60,496 nucleotides of DNA from positions 1 through 60,496 of the forward strand of contig CP033462.1 of NCBI GenBank assembly GCA_007833815.1. Direction: 5' to 3'. The notes under the pieces are model-generated. The model saw nothing but the letters and a program-made list of their open reading frames with translations, made no database searches and was not told where the DNA came from. This document shows, piece after piece, positions 268 to 44,139 of this stretch. The stretch comes from Brevibacillus laterosporus. Lineage in GTDB: Bacteria; Bacillota; Bacilli; Brevibacillales; Brevibacillaceae. A program made the position numbers and the translations under genes. How positions within the stretch are numbered: position 1 is the first letter of the stretch; the number at the start of each line of letters is the position of its first letter.

Positions 268-621
268 ATGGAGAATAAGTTTGCTGAACGTTTCAAAGCC
301 CTACGTGAACTCAAGGGCTGGACTCAACAAGAGGCTGCTGAGGCTTTGGGCATTACAAGACCAACTATAGCGGGATATGAATCTAAATCAAAATTCAGGG
401 TTCCGAGAGAAGAAAACCTGATCCATATCGCAAACGAATTTGGAGTTTCTGTGGATTATCTGCTTGGGAGAACGGACGAGCCACAATCTAACAAAAATAC
501 TTGGGATATCCTATTAGAAAATAACTCATTCACTCCAGAAGAAATACAGATGATTAAAAAATTCCGTTCCCTCCCAAAAGAAAAACAAAACGCAATTCGA
601 GAACACATTAGAACCTCTTAG
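268..621 (+). CDS. CI-like XRE family repressor
   Basis: 117-residue helix-turn-helix protein: HTH at about residues 5-60 (FKALRELKGWTQQEAAEALG, then ITRPTIAGYES), followed by VDYLLGRTDEPQ, typical of XRE repressors, and a short C-terminal dimerisation-type tail. No peptidase domain, so it is a small SinR/CI-type repressor without RecA-dependent self-cleavage. ATG 268 is preferred over GTG 259 because AGGAG (255-259) is 8 bases upstream. Divergent from the Cro-like gene across an operator-bearing region, so it is the likely lysogeny repressor and probable ligand of the GTTCC-N5-GGAAC sites (inferred). Confidence 0.85.
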   Translation: MENKFAERFKALRELKGWTQQEAAEALGITRPTIAGYESKSKFRVPREENLIHIANEFGVSVDYLLGRTDEPQSNKNTWDILLENNSFTPEEIQMIKKFRSLPKEKQNAIREHIRTS

Positions 622-635
622 ACATGCCATCTCCT

Positions 636-782
636 TCACGGGACAGTGGCGTGTATTTTTTTTATTTGCTCTTTAGCTTCTTCATCTGTCCTACTCTTTA
701 TAATAAGAACTCCCAATTGCAAAATTTCAGTAGCTGTCAATTCTTCTGTCGTTTCCATAGAATTTTGAATAGAGTTGCTCAT
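636..782 (-). CDS. Small hypothetical protein (48 aa)
   Basis: Short minus-strand gene convergent with the CI-like gene. ATG 782 has AGGGGG 7 bases upstream; upstream in-frame ATGs lack a ribosome-binding site. The product (MSNSIQNSMETTEELTATEI, C-terminal DEEAKEQIKKIHATVP) is a charged, probably helical peptide of no family I recognise. It lies directly downstream of the signalling-peptide terminator, so it is probably a separate transcription unit; a TATAAT-like -10 (minus strand) lies at about 819-824 with no clear -35. Confidence 0.6.
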   Translation of the reverse strand: MSNSIQNSMETTEELTATEILQLGVLIIKSRTDEEAKEQIKKIHATVP

Positions 783-884: not shown

Positions 885-908
885 AAAGCCCCTTATAAAA
901 GGGGCTTT
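885..908 (-). terminator. Terminator after the RRNPP receptor-peptide operon
   Basis: Perfect inverted repeat AAAGCCCC (885-892) / GGGGCTTT (901-908) followed on the minus strand by a run of T. It closes the operon that ends with the propeptide gene at 943. Confidence 0.85.
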
Positions 909-942: not shown

Positions 943-1086
943 CTACCAGTCAGGTGCGGTGGAGTACTGGGTGAAATATGTTGTGGCTTTTTTAGCGCTA
1001 AACTGAGCTGATTCCTCCGCGCTGGCCATTGAAGACATTAAAAGCAAAGCGAATAAAACTAGAGAAGAAGCGAATAGTTTTTTCAT
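943..1086 (-). CDS. Secreted signalling propeptide (RRNPP cognate, candidate)
   Basis: 47-codon gene. The product has a Sec signal peptide (MKKLFASSLV, hydrophobic core LFALLLM, likely cleavage after ASA at residue 23) and a 24-residue exported part ending YSTAPDW. This is the architecture of PapR/NprX/Phr-type propeptides, whose C-terminal 5-8 residues become the re-imported signal. The ATG is one base after the stop of the HTH-TPR receptor (TAA-C-ATG), so translation is coupled, with an AGAGGGG ribosome-binding site. Too short for usual gene callers. The mature peptide is inferred, most likely within the last 7-8 residues. Confidence 0.8.
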   Translation of the reverse strand: MKKLFASSLVLFALLLMSSMASAEESAQFSAKKATTYFTQYSTAPDW

Positions 1087-1087
1087 G

Positions 1088-2398
1088 TTACAAACCCCTC
1101 TTTCCTTTTTGAATAACCATGTTCAATAAATCTGTAATAATAAGTTGAGAATCAATACCTATCATACTCTTGCCAGAAGCATACAAACCTGTAACTTGAG
1201 TTGCATTAAGTTTGTACAACAATTCCATACTTTCCAAAAACTCTTGTTGCAAGCCTAATTGTGCAAAGATACGCATACTTCCCAAGAGAGCTTTTACAGA
1301 ATTTTTTACTTCACCTAGTAAAAACTCCACTCTCCCCTTATTACGTAAGTATAAACCATAATACAGTTCGTTAAAAGGTCCTTTAAGGTTCTTACTCTCT
1401 AAAATTTTATTAACTATCTCTTCAAAGCAGTACAGTTTTCTAGCCTCGTGCATATTGTTGCTCTTAATATATAACTGCATTAGCTCATTAATAGCAACAA
1501 TCGTATTATGATGAAACTCATAGTCCTCTAAATATTTTTCTAGTAAAGGTATAGCTCGACCCACATCATTTCTTCTTGCATAAACAATTGCTTTATCTAT
1601 TTTGTAGTAAGAGCTTTCATACTTATTAAATTTTAAAGCGTACTCCTCCAGAAATTGATCTGCTCTATCAATGTCCCCGATATCTATTAAATTATTATAA
1701 AATGCATGGTAAGCTTTTTCCTTAAAAACTGTATCTCTAATAGTGCTATCTAGAACTATCTTTCCTAGAAATTCATTACTTTCATAAGGTTTTTTTATGA
1801 TTAAAGCATGTACCCCAACTTTATAGTACGCTATTACACGATTTTCTTCCGTTAAGAAATTCGAAACTTCAATCAATCGCTTCCCTAGGTAATAGCTATT
1901 GGACATATCCTTATCACGTGCAATGAGATATTCCTCAAACATGGCGGCTGCCATGATATCGCATTCCTGATAACTCATTGCATGTTTCCCTAAAACCGAA
2001 TATAGTTTTTCAGCACTACTAATAGAGTTGGTTTCCTCCGCAATATTTAAGACATCAATTAACCCTTTTCGTACATCCTGTCCTAATGTCACGTATTGAT
2101 GTACAACTTCGGTTAAAAGACTCTTAGATGCTTCAGGTAAAACTCGAATCAGTATTTCTTTTACACATTCTTGATTTTTTTGAATCGGTACAACTTTTCC
2201 AACAATTTCGGTAAACGGAATAACTAATGATTTCGCTACTTTTTCGACTGTTTCAAGTTTAGGGTGGTTTGTCAGATCACTTTCTAGCCTGCGTAAAGCT
2301 TTTTCCGAGATGTTTGTTTCTTTTTTTATATCCGCTATAGACTTGCCACATTTCTTTCGGTAGGTGTGAATTAACTGACCTAAGGTACCACTACTCAC
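1088..2398 (-). CDS. RRNPP-type peptide-sensing transcriptional regulator (HTH + TPR)
   Basis: 436-residue protein from GTG 2398, chosen because GGGGAG sits just upstream and the HTH begins within a few residues. Upstream codons are in a leader with a hairpin. N-terminal XRE HTH (about residues 4-60: TLGQLIHTYRKKCGKSIADI, ETNISEKALRRLESD) followed by about 370 residues of helical hairpins consistent with TPR repeats (AYYKVGVHALIIKKPYESNE, ALLGSMRIFAQLGLQQEFLE). PlcR, PrgX, NprR and AimR share this layout and bind a short imported peptide. The peptide gene directly downstream supports a receptor-pheromone pair. The regulated promoters cannot be told from the sequence. C-terminal NMVIQKGKRGL. 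Confidence 0.85.
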   Translation of the reverse strand: MSSGTLGQLIHTYRKKCGKSIADIKKETNISEKALRRLESDLTNHPKLETVEKVAKSLVIPFTEIVGKVVPIQKNQECVKEILIRVLPEASKSLLTEVVHQYVTLGQDVRKGLIDVLNIAEETNSISSAEKLYSVLGKHAMSYQECDIMAAAMFEEYLIARDKDMSNSYYLGKRLIEVSNFLTEENRVIAYYKVGVHALIIKKPYESNEFLGKIVLDSTIRDTVFKEKAYHAFYNNLIDIGDIDRADQFLEEYALKFNKYESSYYKIDKAIVYARRNDVGRAIPLLEKYLEDYEFHHNTIVAINELMQLYIKSNNMHEARKLYCFEEIVNKILESKNLKGPFNELYYGLYLRNKGRVEFLLGEVKNSVKALLGSMRIFAQLGLQQEFLESMELLYKLNATQVTGLYASGKSMIGIDSQLIITDLLNMVIQKGKRGL

Positions 2399-2431
2399 AA
2401 AAAATCTCCCCTTCTGAAAACGAAAAGCTCC

Positions 2432-2460
2432 ATCACCGGTTTTCTGGTGACAGAGCTTTT
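2432..2460. promoter_or_regulatory. Hairpin in the leader of the RRNPP receptor
   Basis: An interrupted inverted repeat (AGCTC..TCACC / GGTGA..GAGCT) lies about 35-60 bases upstream of the receptor start codon. On the minus strand it is followed by TTTTCG, so it could attenuate transcription. It could also be an operator. Confidence 0.45.
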
Positions 2461-2553
2461 TCCATAAGGAAAACTTTCGTCCATCAGCTAAACTTTTGTC
2501 AGTAACTGAATAATAACTAATGACAAAAATTTGAAAACTCGATACAATATGTA

Positions 2554-2661
2554 CCAAGCAAGCTGACGGGTACGAAAAGTGCCTCTGTTCACCGAGGGCG
2601 AGTCGGTGGTCAGACTTACCAGGACTGGGGAGTCCTCGGTAAGCATGTTGGCTTGCTTTTC
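2554..2661. other. GC-rich structured element (three-stem RNA or DNA fold), unknown family
   Basis: About 105 bases, clearly more GC-rich than the surrounding DNA. Outer arms AAGCAAGC (from 2557) and GCTTGCTT (near 2652-2659) enclose hairpin CACCGA (2590-2595)/TCGGTG (2603-2608) and the strong hairpin CTTACC-AGGACT-GGGG-AGTCCT-C-GGTAAG (2615-2643). The fold is a three-way junction on either strand; the plus-strand version ends in GCTTGCTTTTC. It lies in the upstream region of the receptor gene. Possible roles are a structured leader, small RNA or single-strand origin; I cannot choose. A 61-codon frame overlaps it but has no ribosome-binding site and is ignored. Confidence 0.5.
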
Positions 2662-2874
2662 ATTTCCGATCAAATTTTCTTTATCTTAACAAAAATTAAC
2701 TTTATAAGCTAGCCTTATTTATGAAAAATTTGGAATAGATATGATTTAAATTCCATCTTTTCCCTATAAAAGGACTAGTTTGTTAAGAATGGATAAACTT
2801 TTGTTTGATCGATTAAAATATAACACTGAAAAATTAAAAACTCTGTCGAATTTTGCGGTTGTTCAGCAACTATT

Positions 2875-2921
2875 GTCCGCGGACGATTTATCTTGACTTT
2901 ATAAACAGCACGCATTATAAT
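2875..2921 (+). promoter_or_regulatory. Near-consensus sigma-A promoter facing the agr-like operon, with upstream palindrome
   Basis: TTGACT (2893-2898), 17-bp spacer, TATAAT (2916-2921) on the plus strand. Nine bases upstream of the -35 is the perfect palindrome GTCCGCGGAC (2875-2884), a likely operator in AT-rich surroundings. No plus-strand gene follows; the transcript would start near 2928 and run into the 15-bp repeat at 2935-2986 and then antisense to the LytTR gene. Confidence 0.6.
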
Positions 2922-2934
2922 GTTTACCCACAAA

Positions 2935-2986
2935 AATACCAAAAAGGGATCGCCCAATTTAATCTGGACGGTCCCTTTTTGGTATT
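2935..2986 (-). terminator. Terminator of the agr-like operon (bidirectional repeat)
   Basis: Perfect 15-bp inverted repeat AATACCAAAAAGGGA (2935-2949) / TCCCTTTTTGGTATT (2972-2986); its arm overlaps the stop codon of the LytTR gene and is followed on the minus strand by TTTTTG. Confidence 0.8.
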
Positions 2987-3324
2987 CCTAAGTGTTCTAT
3001 TTTCTTGTATTTGGGTCTTGAGACTTCGGCATATGAACCATCTTCGAAGTACACTCGGATTGAAAAAGAATCATCTACTATATATTTTATTGCGTTTATG
3101 TTTACAACATTTACAGGATCTAATTGCATGAAACCGAACTTTTCCCACTTTTGGCCAACATCCTCAAGAGTCGTTAGTCCGAGAAATTTTCCTTTATTGG
3201 TGTGATATTGTAAGATTCCATTTTTAGAGTTCTTTGGTCTGAAGAGGTCAACCTTATTGACCTCTTCAATTTTAAAATCTTCAATTTCATTGGTTCCAAA
3301 GCGAATGCCCGAAAACATTGTCAT
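2959..3324 (-). CDS. LytTR-domain DNA-binding regulator without receiver domain
   Basis: 121 residues. C-terminal two thirds match the LytTR fold (FMQLDPVNVVNINAIKYIV, RVYFEDGSYAEVSRPKYKKI), the DNA-binding domain of AgrA. There is no N-terminal phospho-acceptor receiver domain, only about 45 residues (IRFGTNEIEDFKIEEVNKVD). ATG 3324 has GTGAG 8 bases upstream. It is the last gene of the agr-like operon, 13 bases after agrD, so it is the likely output regulator. How a signal would reach it without a receiver is not evident. Confidence 0.8.
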   Translation of the reverse strand: MTMFSGIRFGTNEIEDFKIEEVNKVDLFRPKNSKNGILQYHTNKGKFLGLTTLEDVGQKWEKFGFMQLDPVNVVNINAIKYIVDDSFSIRVYFEDGSYAEVSRPKYKKIEHLGIPKRDRPD

Positions 3325-3337
3325 AGCGTACACTCAC

Positions 3338-3457
3338 TTACTTTTTTAATTCTACTGGTACTTCAGGGCTTCCGATTGTGAACTTGAAGCTAACTACATA
3401 GATGCTTGCGAGTGCAGCAAAAAATTTAGATAGTGTAACTGCCGTTTTGTTTGTCAT
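3338..3457 (-). CDS. agrD: AgrD-like autoinducing peptide precursor (Ser in place of ring Cys)
   Basis: 39 codons, preceded by a perfect AGGAGGTGA site. Typical AgrD plan: amphipathic leader (TLSKFFAALASIYVV), candidate ring segment SFKFT, and acidic tail SPEVPVELKK that matches the EVPxEL recognition tail of staphylococcal AgrD. The residue expected to form the thiolactone is Ser (residue 23) rather than Cys, and there is no Cys in the peptide, so a lactone ring, known for a minority of Agr peptides, is predicted. It sits directly after agrB, so AgrB is the obvious processing enzyme. Confidence 0.8.
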   Translation of the reverse strand: MTNKTAVTLSKFFAALASIYVVSFKFTIGSPEVPVELKK

Positions 3458-3461
3458 GATG

Positions 3462-3980
3462 TCACCTCCTTTTAGGGATTAATAAAATAGATTGAACAAA
3501 GAACGACAATGATAATATCGGAGAAATAAATAAAAAATTAGAGCAAACAATTAGAAATGAGATCACCTTGAGTAATAAATGTTTCTCCCTTGGCACTTTC
3601 ACTCCGTCGTAGACGTTGTTAGGAGCTAGTAGCAATACTAGGAGTCCTGAAATAGCAGTTAATACAGTATTGACTATAGAGGTCATGGGAATGTGAGGAA
3701 TAATCGACATGATACCTACTGTAACCACTGCACACCCATCTAATGACTTTAGATGGTATCCACCTGAAAACGCTCTCAGCAACATAAACGAAAACAAGGC
3801 TATTATTGTTTCAGCCAATCTCCCAAATAAATACCCAAGCAAAATTGAAAATATCAAGACCACCAAAAAATTGATGGTCACAGATATAGAATAGGTTAAT
3901 ACAGCGACGCTACTTGTTTGAGCAGGATTTGCTTTATTAATTAGAGTAGCGATTTTCTTTGAAATTTTTTCAATCATCAT
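3462..3980 (-). CDS. agrB: AgrB-like peptide-processing membrane endopeptidase
   Basis: 172 residues from ATG 3980, which overlaps the stop of the upstream sensor gene (ATGA). Family hallmark RAFSGGYHLKSLDGC gives the catalytic pair His76 and Cys83, at nearly the same numbers as in S. aureus AgrB (77 and 84). About five or six membrane segments (NFLVVLIFSILLGYLFG; VLTAISGLLVLLLA; LLKVISFLIVCSNFLFI). AgrB cleaves the C-terminal tail of AgrD and forms the peptide ring. Immediately followed by the agrD gene. Confidence 0.92.
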   Translation of the reverse strand: MMIEKISKKIATLINKANPAQTSSVAVLTYSISVTINFLVVLIFSILLGYLFGRLAETIIALFSFMLLRAFSGGYHLKSLDGCAVVTVGIMSIIPHIPMTSIVNTVLTAISGLLVLLLAPNNVYDGVKVPREKHLLLKVISFLIVCSNFLFISPILSLSFFVQSILLIPKRR

Positions 3981-4642
3981 AAATAATCCCGTTTCCTTAG
4001 GAGCCAAAGCAGAATAGCAAGTGGAATTAATACGTATGCGAGTATGATGAACGTATTAGCTTGACTCATAATTAGCACGTATAAAACCGTTGTTAGAACA
4101 AAGACAGTTAACCCTACTGCTAAGATTAATAAGTATGATAGTTTGTTCATTTCTGGCTTATAGGTCATGCTATGTGGAGGTTGAGATATAAAGCTATAGC
4201 CTAGATTTAGAACTTTCAGCAGCCACGCAACCAACACTACTAAAACATCTGCAACAAACTGTATGATAAAAGTTCCTAGTTCTGTGAATTGGCCTAAATC
4301 GTTTAGATTTACTAGGCTAGTTTTTAGTAACAAGGACAGTGCTACAAATTGTATTCCCGTAAAGGCTATACAACCAGCAGCTGTGACTAATGTAGCCTCG
4401 TATAATCTAAACTCTAACATGTGCCTAAAAAATATAACTAGTGCTATGTACTGTATCCCAGTATCATATTGGGGTATGTCTAGTACCACCCTGTTAAAAT
4501 AAGAAATTAGTGATAATACACACGCAATTAGTAAAAAATCTTTCAGGTAGTAACGAACAGGAAACCGGAACATCTTAAAAGCGATAATCATGATAGCCAT
4601 TTGGTCCAGTACACCAAACATAAGATATAACAAAATATCCAT
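3977..4642 (-). CDS. Kinase-less AgrC-like polytopic membrane sensor (candidate)
   Basis: 221 residues, almost entirely hydrophobic with six or seven predicted membrane segments (MDILLYLMFGVLDQMAIMII; YIALVIFFRH; TFIIQFVADVLVVLVAWLLK; LLILAVGLTVFVLTTVLYVL) and a basic C-terminus RKRDYL. Size and topology equal the sensor half of AgrC, and it heads the agrB-agrD-LytTR operon, but the histidine kinase half is absent: the protein ends after the last helix. It may be a receptor without kinase, a decoy, or an exporter partner. Assignment rests on context and topology, not on a conserved motif. Confidence 0.6.
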   Translation of the reverse strand: MDILLYLMFGVLDQMAIMIIAFKMFRFPVRYYLKDFLLIACVLSLISYFNRVVLDIPQYDTGIQYIALVIFFRHMLEFRLYEATLVTAAGCIAFTGIQFVALSLLLKTSLVNLNDLGQFTELGTFIIQFVADVLVVLVAWLLKVLNLGYSFISQPPHSMTYKPEMNKLSYLLILAVGLTVFVLTTVLYVLIMSQANTFIILAYVLIPLAILLWLLRKRDYL

Positions 4643-4828: not shown

Positions 4829-5407
4829 TTATTTTTTCTTAGCAGGTTGTAGATCGATCAGAACAGTCTCCCCAGCCGCAAATGCTACCCCGCTTGCTAC
4901 TTTCAATTTCAATCCCTTAGCATCCGCCGGCATATCAAACACCACTTGTCCTTTAGCAGATAGCTTAGGGTTTACATTTGCTAGAAAGAAGTTATTTTGT
5001 TGATTCGCATAAAGGTTAGCCTCTGGATCTGGATCATAAGTAGTTCCATCTGCATCAACTAGATTAAACATTGAAGAATCAATCATACGCGCTTCTTTAT
5101 CCACGTTTTTTACTTCTAAATCAATCAAAATGTATGTACCTTGAGGTTTTTTGTTCATAAATTCATTACCAACTTGCTTAGCAGTGCTAGTTTTTTTTGC
5201 AACTACTTCAAATTTCCCTACAGCCACTTTTTCATTTAATTTCGCCAATGCAGGTTCTGCCTCTTCCTTTGCCTCCGTAGCCTTCTCTTCAGTGGCTAAT
5301 ACAGCACCAGAGCCTGTCTTGCTAACTTCAGTTCCGCAACCTGACATAAATAAAGAACAAGACATGACTGCTATTACTGAAACCATCCCTAACTTGTGAA
5401 CTATCAA
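4829..5407 (-). CDS. DUF4352 lipoprotein
   Basis: 192 residues from TTG 5407, preceded by GGGGG at a 9-base distance. Lipoprotein signal peptide with lipobox LFMSGC, then a charged linker (TEEKATEAKEEAEPALAKLN) and a C-terminal immunoglobulin-like DUF4352 domain (VGKFEVVAKK, GTYILIDLEVKNVDKEARMI, then LVDADGTTYDPD and VVFDMPADAK). Extracytoplasmic, membrane-anchored. Such proteins are common cargo on Bacillota phages and plasmids; a role in surface modification or superinfection exclusion is possible but not shown. Confidence 0.8.
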   Translation of the reverse strand: MIVHKLGMVSVIAVMSCSLFMSGCGTEVSKTGSGAVLATEEKATEAKEEAEPALAKLNEKVAVGKFEVVAKKTSTAKQVGNEFMNKKPQGTYILIDLEVKNVDKEARMIDSSMFNLVDADGTTYDPDPEANLYANQQNNFFLANVNPKLSAKGQVVFDMPADAKGLKLKVASGVAFAAGETVLIDLQPAKKK

Positions 5408-5559
5408 AATTACCAACCCCCACAAAATATAGTAAATTTTAACTAAGAAAAATATACCATATGTGCGGGTGATTGGGAATTGATTAGACTATCATGAACA
5501 AAAAAGCATTTGGGAGTGTCCAAAGATTTTCGTAGTTTATTCATGCCTATAATGTGGTA

Positions 5560-5725
5560 TTATAAGTACAGGAATGCATACACTAAAAAGACCGCAGGTG
5601 TTAACGCACCTACGGCCATACAATAGACTGTCCCCTCAAAGGGGTCGGCTCACAGGATTTAAAGTGAAGAACAGACTCTCCCCTTAGTTTCCAGGCTCAA
5701 GGGAGGGTCTATTTCTTTTTGATCA
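5560..5725 (+). ncRNA. Candidate antitoxin RNA (RatA-like) convergent with the toxin gene
   Basis: Plus-strand TATAAT-like elements (CCTATAATG at about 5549, GGTATTATA at about 5556) precede a gene-free stretch that ends in a strong hairpin AGACTCTCCCC..GGGAGGGTCT and TTTCTTTTT (to about 5725). The RNA would overlap the 3' end of the toxin mRNA, which is the TxpA/RatA arrangement. Exact ends are inferred. Confidence 0.55.
5585..5616 (-). terminator. Terminator of the toxin mRNA
   Basis: CCGTAGGTG-CGTTAA-CACCTGCGG followed by TCTTTTT on the minus strand. It places the toxin mRNA 3' end well inside the convergent RNA, giving more than 100 bases of potential pairing. Confidence 0.8.
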
Positions 5726-5816
5726 GTGTCAGAATAGCAACGACCACGCCTATAAGCGTTAATGTAAACACTCCGAAGTTAATTGCTAGGTTAATTGCAT
5801 CAACGACTGACACCAT
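5709..5816 (-). CDS. Holin-like type I toxin (TxpA/BsrG family)
   Basis: 35-codon gene: MVSVVDAINLAINFGVFTLT then LIGVVVAILTLIKKK. One membrane helix and a lysine tail, the signature of the Hol_Tox family of type I toxins. Strong AGGGGG site upstream of ATG 5816; an extended -10 (TGGTATAAT) lies near 5897 on the minus strand, giving a leader of about 70 bases. Such toxins depolarise the membrane when the unstable antisense RNA is lost, so they stabilise plasmids and prophages; here it should penalise loss of the phage-plasmid. Confidence 0.85.
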   Translation of the reverse strand: MVSVVDAINLAINFGVFTLTLIGVVVAILTLIKKK

Positions 5817-5926
5817 GTTCTCACCCCCTCTCCACGAGGATATAGGAGTGAGCCGCCGCCCTTGAGAAAGCCGAATCTATTGTATTAAGGAAGATTATAC
5901 CAGAATAATTTGATTAGCATAACAAA

Positions 5927-5954: not shown

Positions 5955-6662
5955 TTATTTAGGAATTTTGCCGTGTGGATCTCTAAAGTTTGTGACGACA
6001 ATGCTATTACCAAAATAATCGGTTACTAGAGTGGCGGTGAAATTGACCGTACTGAACGTTCCAATTTCTTTAAATTTATACACCTTAGCATTATTCCAGG
6101 TCCAAATTTCCCCTTGTTTTTGGGGAGGAATTTTCACGGTAAATGTATCTTTAAAGGTGAATTTTTCTGCCCATTTCTTTCCTACCTCTGCCTTAAAAAC
6201 CTTTTCAAATTCCCCGCCCACAGTTATTGACGTTTCGGAGAATGACTCTCTCTCCACTGTACGTACCCATTGAAAATCCTTTTTTGTCCTATTTTCTGTA
6301 TAGTCCACTTTATAATCGTATTTCATAGGCCCGACGTAGTCTACATATCCATAAGTATCAAAAAGCGCTGGCTGGATACCTTTTCTTTTTTCACTGTCTT
6401 TAGCAGTTTGATCCTTAATGGCGGATTCTTTTTTAAATCCATTTTGCTCCATGAATTTTTGTGCTTTATCAGGATCATCGATGTAAATAACAGGTACTCT
6501 TTCCCCTTTTTCACTTGTGATGTATTCAATCTTGTCTGGTACAATGCTGCTTTCGCTCAATGTAGCTGGTAACTCATTGGCTTGGACATTATTACCCATC
6601 CAAGGCATCGTAATTCCAATTGATAATGCTGCCACTAATGATAAACTTACTAGCTTTTTCAC
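5955..6662 (-). CDS. Secreted protein of unknown function
   Basis: 235 residues from GTG 6662 (GGAGG upstream). Clear signal peptide (KKLVSLSLVAALSIG; cleavage near VQA). The mature part has an acidic N-terminal section (YIDDPDKAQKFMEQNGF) and a C-terminal section of alternating polar/hydrophobic strands (VRTVERESFSETSITVGGEF, FTFKDTFTVKIPPQKQGEIW). That pattern is seen in secreted beta-rich and some pore-forming proteins, but I recognise no family and do not claim a toxin. Carried as cargo between the toxin-antitoxin pair and the replicon. The first 40 codons of the longer frame lack a start signal. Confidence 0.75.
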   Translation of the reverse strand: MKKLVSLSLVAALSIGITMPWMGNNVQANELPATLSESSIVPDKIEYITSEKGERVPVIYIDDPDKAQKFMEQNGFKKESAIKDQTAKDSEKRKGIQPALFDTYGYVDYVGPMKYDYKVDYTENRTKKDFQWVRTVERESFSETSITVGGEFEKVFKAEVGKKWAEKFTFKDTFTVKIPPQKQGEIWTWNNAKVYKFKEIGTFSTVNFTATLVTDYFGNSIVVTNFRDPHGKIPK

Positions 6663-6785
6663 AATACTAATTCCTCCATTTTTGTAAAATTTAATCATTT
6701 TTATATTAGCATACAATAATTGGATATTCCAAATCATTTGTAGTATTTTAAATATAAACAGCATTAATTTAGGAGGAACCATTTC

Positions 6786-40859: not shown

Positions 40860-41432
40860 TTAAAGCTTTAGGTTTATATAAACATCTTTGATGTCATCGT
40901 CGGTGATTCCAATGTATTTCTTTGTCATAGACGGCGTGCTGTGATTAAACACGTCCATCAATAAAACAATATCAGTTCCTTGTTTATAAGCATGATACCC
41001 GAATGTCTTTCTAAGTGAGTGCGTTCCGATAGGATCAGCAATACGTGCCACTTGAGCTGCTTCACTTATGATCTTATGCGCTTGAAAACGATCGATTGGT
41101 CTGTTTTCTCCTTTGCGCGATTTAAATATGTACCAGTCTGTGTTCAAATTCTCAATACTGGACATGTACTCTTTCAATGCTTTAATCGCATCTTCTTGAA
41201 GGAAAAAGCTTTTTGTCTTCTCCGTTTTTTCCTCTTTGATGATAATGCGATCTTTAAACTTCTTTTCATTCTCCAGTACATCTTTCCACTTTAGTTCGAG
41301 CAGATCAGATATACGCAATCCAATTCTGATTCCAACTTCAAACAATGCATAATTTCTAAGGTTAGTTTTCTTCAAAAAGTCTCTTATGATTTTTATTTTT
41401 TTCGTATCTCTTATCGGCTGAACAGTATTCAT
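40860..41432 (-). CDS. Small tyrosine recombinase (XerD/TnpI-like)
   Basis: 190 residues from ATG 41432. Catalytic set: Arg in GLRISDLLELKW, Lys region in IKEEKTEKTKSFFL, HSLRKT, NHST and Tyr in KKYIGI. Lacks the N-terminal SAM-like core-binding domain of most integrases. Next to it are repeats (41446-41755) with the layout of a recombination site. On a circular plasmid prophage the likely task is multimer resolution, not integration; an integrase role cannot be excluded. Confidence 0.85.
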   Translation of the reverse strand: MNTVQPIRDTKKIKIIRDFLKKTNLRNYALFEVGIRIGLRISDLLELKWKDVLENEKKFKDRIIIKEEKTEKTKSFFLQEDAIKALKEYMSSIENLNTDWYIFKSRKGENRPIDRFQAHKIISEAAQVARIADPIGTHSLRKTFGYHAYKQGTDIVLLMDVFNHSTPSMTKKYIGITDDDIKDVYINLKL

Positions 41433-41445
41433 TGCCCAACATCTC

Positions 41446-41755
41446 CAATACCACTTATTTATACTTATATAATATATTATGTGGTATTGAAAGTAAATAA
41501 GGGATTTAATCATCTTTACAAACAGCCATTGAACCCTTGGTACTACTATGTTTATAGCACACTCATGAATACCACTTAATATAATTGTGTGGTATTGAAT
41601 AGAATCGCTAACTTATGATTTTTTCCTTTTTCATTCTAATGTAGAAACAGAATCGACCTAAATTCCCAGATGCTAATAAATTGCCATGATCGAGAGCCAT
41701 GTAGCCCACCCTCAATCATCAATTCCATCCATTTCCAAATACCACTTATTTACCC
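41446..41755. repeat. Recombination site with AATACCAC repeats (candidate resolution or att site)
   Basis: CAATACCAC (41446-41454) pairs with GTGGTATTG (41481-41489); a second pair AATACCAC (41568-41575)/GTGGTATT (41589-41596) has 13 bp between arms, near the usual core size; a fifth copy AATACCACTTATTTA (41738-41752) is direct to the first. Inverted core plus extra direct sites is the layout of TnpI/Xer-type res sites. They are also positioned to repress the recombinase promoter. Confidence 0.7.
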
Positions 41756-43391: not shown

Positions 43392-44042
43392 TTAGTCATC
43401 ATTCATTTTTAAGCTTCCTACGGTTCCAAGAATTTCGCTTATGAAAATATATCTAATTTTCTCCTTCACATCGATTGAAATGGCACCATTTTCTTGAAGT
43501 CTTTTCAGACATGTGTATACAAAAGATTTGTTCTTCTGAGACATTTTAATTAAATGCTTTGTTGACAGTGGTTGATTCACTGTTCCTAATTCATTATCTC
43601 CCATAACACAATTGTTTTCGTCCATGTACAACATTAACCGATGTAAAAATCCAGCTTCACCTAATGTAAGCTCATCCCATATCTGGTTTGCTTCCTCGCT
43701 TGTGTAAATCACTACATGTTTGTGTCCTTTACCACCTGAAGGTATACCTGCCTTATTTGCAATGTTGAACCCTATATTTGGGTCACAGCAGCCAGTATTA
43801 TCTATCCAACATTGCTCTCGTTCAATTAGTCTTTCAGGAACTAAACTTAGATCTTCAAGTACTTCAAAAGTAAATTGTTCCTGTCCATACTTATTCCATG
43901 CGCGTTGCAAATGTTTATTGTGATGATTCCCATTGGTTAGATTGCTCCAATGTTGGATTTTTCGTTTACTTAAATCCTTGGTACTTCCAATATAGAATTT
44001 GCTATTTGAGAGACAAGTAATTTTATATATTCCTGATTTCAT
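43392..44042 (-). CDS. GIY-YIG endonuclease fused to a winged-helix domain
   Basis: 216 residues from ATG 44042 (GGAGG 7 bases upstream). Residues 1-95: GIY-YIG nuclease (SGIYKITCLSNSKFYIGSTK, LSKRKIQHWSNLTNGNHHNK, LQRAWNKYGQEQFTFEVLED, ERLIEREQCWID). Residues 110-205: winged helix (LTLGEAGFLHRLMLYMDENN, KHLIKMSQKNKSFVYTCLKR, LQENGAISIDVKEKI), similar in plan to the neighbouring gene at 42832. It looks like a homing-type nuclease attached to, or inserted in, a paralogue of that gene. Confidence 0.8.
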   Translation of the reverse strand: MKSGIYKITCLSNSKFYIGSTKDLSKRKIQHWSNLTNGNHHNKHLQRAWNKYGQEQFTFEVLEDLSLVPERLIEREQCWIDNTGCCDPNIGFNIANKAGIPSGGKGHKHVVIYTSEEANQIWDELTLGEAGFLHRLMLYMDENNCVMGDNELGTVNQPLSTKHLIKMSQKNKSFVYTCLKRLQENGAISIDVKEKIRYIFISEILGTVGSLKMNDD

Positions 44043-44139
44043 TTCAAAACCTCCATTTCTCACCCACCGTTCGGGTTCCGAAGTCCATCGCGCTGTGGCA
44101 GTTTCCTACCGAACCTCGGAAGCCCAACGATGGGCAAAA

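Follow-up and report, generated by a model that had tools for sequence, protein, structure and literature searches.

The 60,496-nucleotide contig CP033462.1 of Brevibacillus laterosporus (assembly GCA_007833815.1), analysed here at its full length and referred to as the window, carries on a putative phage-plasmid an Agr-like gene cassette without an AgrC kinase. The cassette encodes an AgrB-type peptidase, a cysteine-free AgrD-like peptide, a seven-transmembrane (7-TM) protein and a receiver-free LytTR DNA-binding protein. Its best-supported reading, to which we assign a probability of roughly 0.55, is kinase-free Agr-type signalling that acts on the LytTR protein through the membrane protein. 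Beside the cassette lies a putative RRNPP-type receptor with its secreted propeptide. An initial annotation had proposed that two unrelated peptide systems adjoin each other here, and all six genes were confirmed on the minus strand with in-frame starts and stops (Table 1).

Table 1. Features of the two peptide-type systems and their surroundings in the window.
Feature	Position	Strand	Basis
XRE/CI-like repressor	268..621	+	HTH_3 E 3.2e-14, HTH_19 E 5.2e-14; RstR model E 3.9e-17, under its cut-off
48-aa ORF between propeptide gene and CI-like gene 3' end	636..782	-	no Pfam match
Terminator-like hairpin, 3' of propeptide gene	885..908	-	
Putative secreted RRNPP-type propeptide, 47 aa, C-terminal STAPDW	943..1086	-	start/stop in frame; endings of relatives
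RRNPP-type receptor, HTH + TPR, 436 aa (P0001)	1088..2398	-	HTH_3 E 2.3e-7, over cut-off; phrog_32768 E 2.7e-28
Conserved leader element, covarying hairpin, ends in terminator-like hairpin	2407..2690	-	five-copy identity and covariation
Terminator-like hairpin, LytTR gene end	2951..2970	-	
LytTR DNA-binding protein, 124 aa, no receiver domain	2959..3333	-	PF04397 E 2.2e-9, residues 25-113
AgrD-like peptide, 39 aa, no cysteine, core KFTIG then SPEVPVELKK	3338..3457	-	
AgrB-type membrane peptidase, 172 aa	3462..3980	-	PF04647 E 8.4e-20; His/Cys motif RAFSGGYHLKSLDGC
7-TM membrane protein, 221 aa	3977..4642	-	no Pfam match; phrog_15604 E 5.8e-92; AlphaFold2

The four cassette genes almost abut, with an overlap of 4 bp between the membrane gene and agrB, and are read in the order 7-TM protein, AgrB, AgrD-like peptide, LytTR protein. 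The His and Cys region of AgrB, which we take to be the active-site region of the peptidase, is retained (motif RAFSGGYHLKSLDGC). Compared with canonical agr and fsr, as described in the portions of PMC12312760 available to us, the cassette shares AgrB, a short propeptide with a charged tail, a five-residue core and a LytTR output, but it contains neither an AgrC histidine kinase nor an AgrA receiver. The AgrD-like peptide lacks a ring-forming Cys or Ser, as does the main group of related peptides at the ring place. The stretch from 2959 to 4642 is not a canonical agr operon, and the term 'Agr-like' fits only its AgrB and its overall plan. The initial description of an RRNPP receptor with a secreted propeptide next to an Agr-like operon held for the presence of the two systems; it had not remarked on the more unusual features, namely the lack of a kinase and of the cysteine, and the leader element described below.

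Profile scans with the membrane protein identified 51 loci (duplicates included), 24 from named genomes and 27 from IMG/VR, spread across Brevibacillus and Paenibacillus genomes and phages. AgrB adjoined the membrane gene at 47 of these 51 loci, and a LytTR match was also present at 40 of the 47, an association beyond chance; contig ends truncate two loci of the set, L017 and L045. The cassette gene maps examined showed no kinase, the remaining loci not having been scanned for kinases, and a kinase domain was found in none of 37 members of the 7-TM family. The LytTR profile matched 50 distinct frames; those of about 240 aa begin with the LytTR part and repeat it, as judged by eye. In three Paenibacillus genomes (L014-L016) the membrane gene stands amid similar chromosomal genes without an AgrB match, an arrangement shared by the truncated L017, and here it is possibly a relative with another role.

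The four genes occur in the same order in the Brevibacillus phages Davies, Emery and Abouo and in the Paenibacillus larvae phage Harrison; a further P. larvae phage, Paisley, is known from search matches. Hargreaves 2014 described AgrB, AgrD and membrane proteins lacking an ATPase domain in Davies, Emery and Abouo (PMC3901668, in the passages available), and those passages make no mention of a LytTR partner, of the missing cysteine or of the K-x-x-hydrophobic-G core described below. In our literature search, whose coverage excluded most subscription papers, no paper was recognised that reports the cysteine-free peptide, the LytTR partner of the cassette or a pairing of Agr and RRNPP systems on one phage.

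The absence of a kinase from the cassette might suggest that canonical agr is borrowed from the host, the phage peptide acting via a host AgrC-type kinase and AgrA while the phage LytTR protein is accessory, as proposed for phiCDHM1. Phages with agrBD but no response regulator have been interpreted in this way (PMC3901668, same passages), and the genome to which the window belongs has a 262-aa frame with a strong LytTR match, possibly a response regulator. In that genome, however, all six AgrB matches adjoin a kinase-free membrane protein of the 7-TM family (one of these with an internal stop), and the 20 HATPase_c_5 matches are all more than 150 kb away from every AgrB match, other ATPase families not having been searched. 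Furthermore, the cassette supplies a LytTR protein of its own. We consider such borrowing rather improbable.

The peptide family was collected as 54 candidate ORFs following 57 distinct AgrB proteins, in a search seeded with four K-type peptides and hence favouring their motif. Within this scope, all 48 retained unique AgrD-like peptides, obtained from 50 of the 57 AgrB proteins, contained the core K-x-x-hydrophobic-G. So did all 22 peptide clusters below 60% identity, in an alignment that was anchored on the motif and in which K and G are fixed by construction; the tails of these clusters carry P in 21 cases, E in 16 and L in 20. No cysteine was present in the five-residue core of any of the 48 peptides, while four carry one elsewhere. 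The exceptional peptides at L027 and L075 are of a Ser type, with Ser at the spacing expected for the ring Cys. Because the five-residue spacing of the core equals that of the staphylococcal ring (as given in the accessible part of PMC12312760), one might imagine a lactam ring closed by Lys onto Gly. This analogy is speculative, and a linear peptide is just as likely, or likelier.

AlphaFold2, run on 37 sequences, predicted seven long helices for the membrane protein with a mean pLDDT of 85.8 and a pTM of 0.85. We propose this protein as a putative receptor that also regulates the LytTR protein. The arrangement resembles the LytTR Regulatory Systems HdrRM and BrsRM, in which a receiver-free LytTR protein and a multi-TM protein share one operon and there is no phosphorelay; unlike those systems, as presented in the available sections of PMC6193735, the window cassette adds AgrB and a peptide gene and has the membrane gene first. 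In the kinase-free signalling that we favour, AgrB would cut near the invariant Gly of the core and the short peptide would be exported. The 7-TM protein would then sense this peptide and directly hold or free the LytTR protein, with no transfer of phosphate. In effect, an Agr-type signal would be joined to the logic of the LytTR Regulatory Systems. To our knowledge, the input signals of the LytTR Regulatory Systems are not known.

Several observations weigh against kinase-free signalling of this kind. Neither Pfam nor comparison with solved folds gave the 7-TM protein a match to an AgrC-type sensor, and no fold stood out. Seven of the 47 cassettes had no LytTR match, although one of these is cut by a contig end and another has a divergent LytTR-like frame, as judged by eye. 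Likewise, 7 of the 57 AgrB proteins had no retained K-type peptide: two are accompanied by the Ser-type peptides, three by K-type peptides in a separate peptide listing, one by a peptide fused to AgrB (KEFWG) and one by a degenerate peptide. Direct repeats of the type seen in LytTR Regulatory Systems (9 bp, 11-13 bp apart), sought in 18 upstream regions of 266 bases, numbered 345, 47 and 3 at 6, 7 and 8 of 9 matches, against shuffle means of 268.8, 41.6 and 4.0 and within the shuffle range; published pairs can match at only 6/9, which is below the resolution of this test. The window itself had none at 7 or 8 of 9 matches. Finally, two related IMG/VR records (G100 and G101, both maybe incomplete) lack the cassette, which was also not found in the stretches read beside two relatives of the window receptor, L112 and L113.

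The same genes could alternatively make an antimicrobial or otherwise competitor-acting peptide, with the 7-TM protein conferring immunity and the LytTR protein regulating production. Such a peptide-plus-immunity plan would suit a peptide that is short and basic, a peptidase that matures it and a membrane protein, and the membrane gene is present in two copies in contig L013 and in the Brevibacillus phages Davies and Emery. AgrD-type peptides, however, act as signals; most of the peptides retain the AgrD-like tail and the invariant core comprises just five residues, no search for immunity families having been made. We regard this alternative as unlikely, and kinase-free signalling remains our preferred reading of the cassette.

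Good evidence from sequence comparison indicates that the stretch from 943 to 2398 is an RRNPP receptor-propeptide pair, because a secreted small ORF lay within 60 bp of the stop codon in 31 of 34 receptors of the family compared with 19 of 196 control genes, by a crude signal-peptide test. In the window the propeptide gene begins 1 bp past the receptor gene. TPR families matched the window receptor under cut-off only, and a profile of 25 receptor relatives matched a designed TPR protein (E 8.7e-4), with no known RRNPP receptor among the matches. All four relatives inspected had a small secreted ORF directly after the receptor. These receptors (L112, L113, L181 and L115) are 84%, 69%, 47% and 37% identical to that of the window, and their propeptides end in STAPDW, ITEPDW, ITDPEW and YSFPEW, respectively, against STAPDW in the window. 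The peptide endings thus vary along with the receptor, whereas the leader element (see below) stays. The receptor family has 21 matches in the genome of the window, fragments counted. In the prophage-like region of L112, which is free of the cassette, the receptor unit has as neighbours an integrase, a Rha antirepressor and genes that by eye are of the XRE type.

By the logic of such pairs, a C-terminal peptide (about STAPDW) would be released outside the cell, re-imported by an oligopeptide permease and bound by the TPR receptor. The peptide-bound receptor may then alter transcription of the unit that reads through the propeptide gene and the 48-aa ORF in the direction of the CI-like gene and its 3' end. 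The 48-aa ORF is a candidate target of the receptor, and small ORFs occupy its position in relatives too, their similarity having been judged by eye. As the initial annotation had indicated, the systems start near the CI-like gene, which lies 321 bp from the propeptide gene and is convergent with it; from this position, altered transcription could bias lysogeny in an arbitrium-like way. The window system resembles the arbitrium system AimR-AimP in pairing a phage-borne receptor with a peptide.

Assignment of the receptor to the AloR family was considered and rejected. Paenibacillus terrae NRRL B-30644, for which 40 Alo receptors have been reported (PMC7425212, in the text available), yielded one weak match to the window receptor (residues 3-126), as opposed to 34 for gp60 of Emery. 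The receptor probably belongs instead to RRNPP_detector cluster 8, an assignment made by elimination and not by direct test, because a plasmid of LMG 15441 reportedly bears an AloR system and a cluster 8 system, one of each (PMC10075063, in the part available), and pBRLA33 of that strain has one receptor of the window type (P0001) and one of the gp60 type. On pBRLA33 (L182, 3474-6573), the P0001-type receptor and a small ORF are directly followed by the gp60-type receptor, which places two RRNPP families one after the other. The window pair is like cluster 8 and AloR-AloP, as these appear in the accessible parts of PMC10075063 and PMC7425212, in having the propeptide after the receptor and in its occurrence on Paenibacillaceae chromosomes, plasmids and phages; unlike AloR-AloP, its receptor lies outside the Alo family. 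Co-occurrence of AimR-AimP and Rap-Phr has been reported for 67 phages (PMC10075063, same part), and the window differs from such phages with two RRNPP systems in that one of its two systems is of the Agr type.

A conserved leader element precedes the receptor. Five copies of it are 79-96% identical, compared with 33-84% for their receptors. The element was found at five places in 4 of 100 relative genomes (that of the window included), all in the genus of the window, and the viral record G100 has an additional copy. Across six sequences, a 13-pair hairpin showed six pairs changed on both sides, a number equalled in 3 of 500 shuffles, and its covariation score was reached in none of the 500. 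Conversely, the number of further pair types was matched by 330 of 500 shuffles. Sliding the partner strand by 1-3 columns left 22-41% of cells paired against 97% unshifted, a control that favours a structure derived from the same sequences. A second hairpin is invariant and hence uninformative. The leader closes with a terminator-like hairpin just ahead of the receptor start, and an Rfam scan of the leader gave no family at threshold. The leader is likely a transcription-attenuating element, which probably sets receptor expression via termination or antitermination, and it may be a new cis-regulatory RNA. Since an XRE ORF separates leader and receptor in L013, it is possibly a separate small RNA. 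In L114 (7604-9301) a receptor-less leader lies beside frames that by eye resemble an insertion element, a sign that the receptor may have been lost.

The two systems were then compared across five related elements. Like the window, the 53-kb contig L115 has the leader, the cassette and a receptor of the P0001 type with its peptide, and the two share 11.7 kb of the structural region at 76% identity. In Emery, the cassette is accompanied in the same slot by the AloR-type receptor gp60, followed by the secreted 43-aa ORF gp61. G100 has the leader, receptor and peptide without the cassette, and G101 has neither cassette nor receptor unit. The co-occurrence for which the initial annotation had suggested a search was found in the window, in L115 and, with an AloR-type receptor, in Emery, and was lacking in G100 and G101. 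These comparisons suggest that the receptor slot is modular and that the pairing recurs yet is optional.

Phage mosaicism might instead have made the two systems neighbours and not parts of one circuit, an explanation to which we give nearly an even chance. Each occurs without the other, and a terminator-like hairpin stands between them. On the other hand, the window and L115 share not only both systems but also the intergenic region (86% identity over 420 positions), of which Emery keeps a part (76% identity to the window over 172 positions) with another receptor-peptide pair in the slot. A lysis-lysogeny or two-population circuit, as first envisaged, is suggested by position only. We consider doubtful the fullest form of the proposal, a new phosphorelay-free Agr class in which a lactam ring, closed by the invariant Lys in place of Cys onto the invariant Gly, prompts a 7-TM receptor to free a LytTR activator directly, wired on Emery-like phages with the RRNPP system and the leader RNA into the lysogeny decision.

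The wider setting supports a temperate, Emery-like phage carried as a circular element in Brevibacillus. The window is an entire contig of a 5.76-Mb genome, and it is very likely a closed circle because a 63-aa XRE ORF, divergent from the CI-like gene, reads through its two ends at the junction; an exact overlap of the contig ends was looked for and not found. Phage genes include those for tape measure, tail sheath, baseplate, head morphogenesis, terminase and endolysin, together with replication and recombination genes for a DnaB-like helicase, a helicase loader and an Erf-like protein. Identity to Emery is 80% over 58% of the 24-kb structural stretch, and this similarity and the ORF across the contig ends both support the earlier view of the element as a phage-plasmid.

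Other genes were noted in the window. A DUF4352 gene (4829-5425, minus strand; PF11611 E 2.5e-29) adjoins the cassette, and phage Harrison has at the matching position a gene annotated as telomeric repeat-binding factor 2. A BsrG-type type I toxin-antitoxin RNA (RF01412, 81.3 bits, gathering 55) lies at 5593-5884 on the minus strand, and 5709-5816 encodes a 35-aa Hol-Tox peptide; L013 and Emery (L010) likewise have this RNA family close to their cassettes. A 275-aa protein with a signal-like N-terminus (by eye) and no Pfam match is encoded at 5955-6782 (minus strand). A 217-aa integrase-like protein near the terminase and a homing endonuclease-like gene lie at 40860-41513 and 43392-44063 (minus strand), respectively.

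If the kinase-free reading is correct, peptide sensing across the membrane would control a DNA-binding protein without a kinase or a second messenger, and the cassette would provide a testable ligand for the LytTR Regulatory Systems. The product range of AgrB would be wider, since the main peptide group has no ring cysteine. The element would also be a natural phage example of a switch that receives two signals of different chemistry and whose one receptor slot is filled by different RRNPP families.

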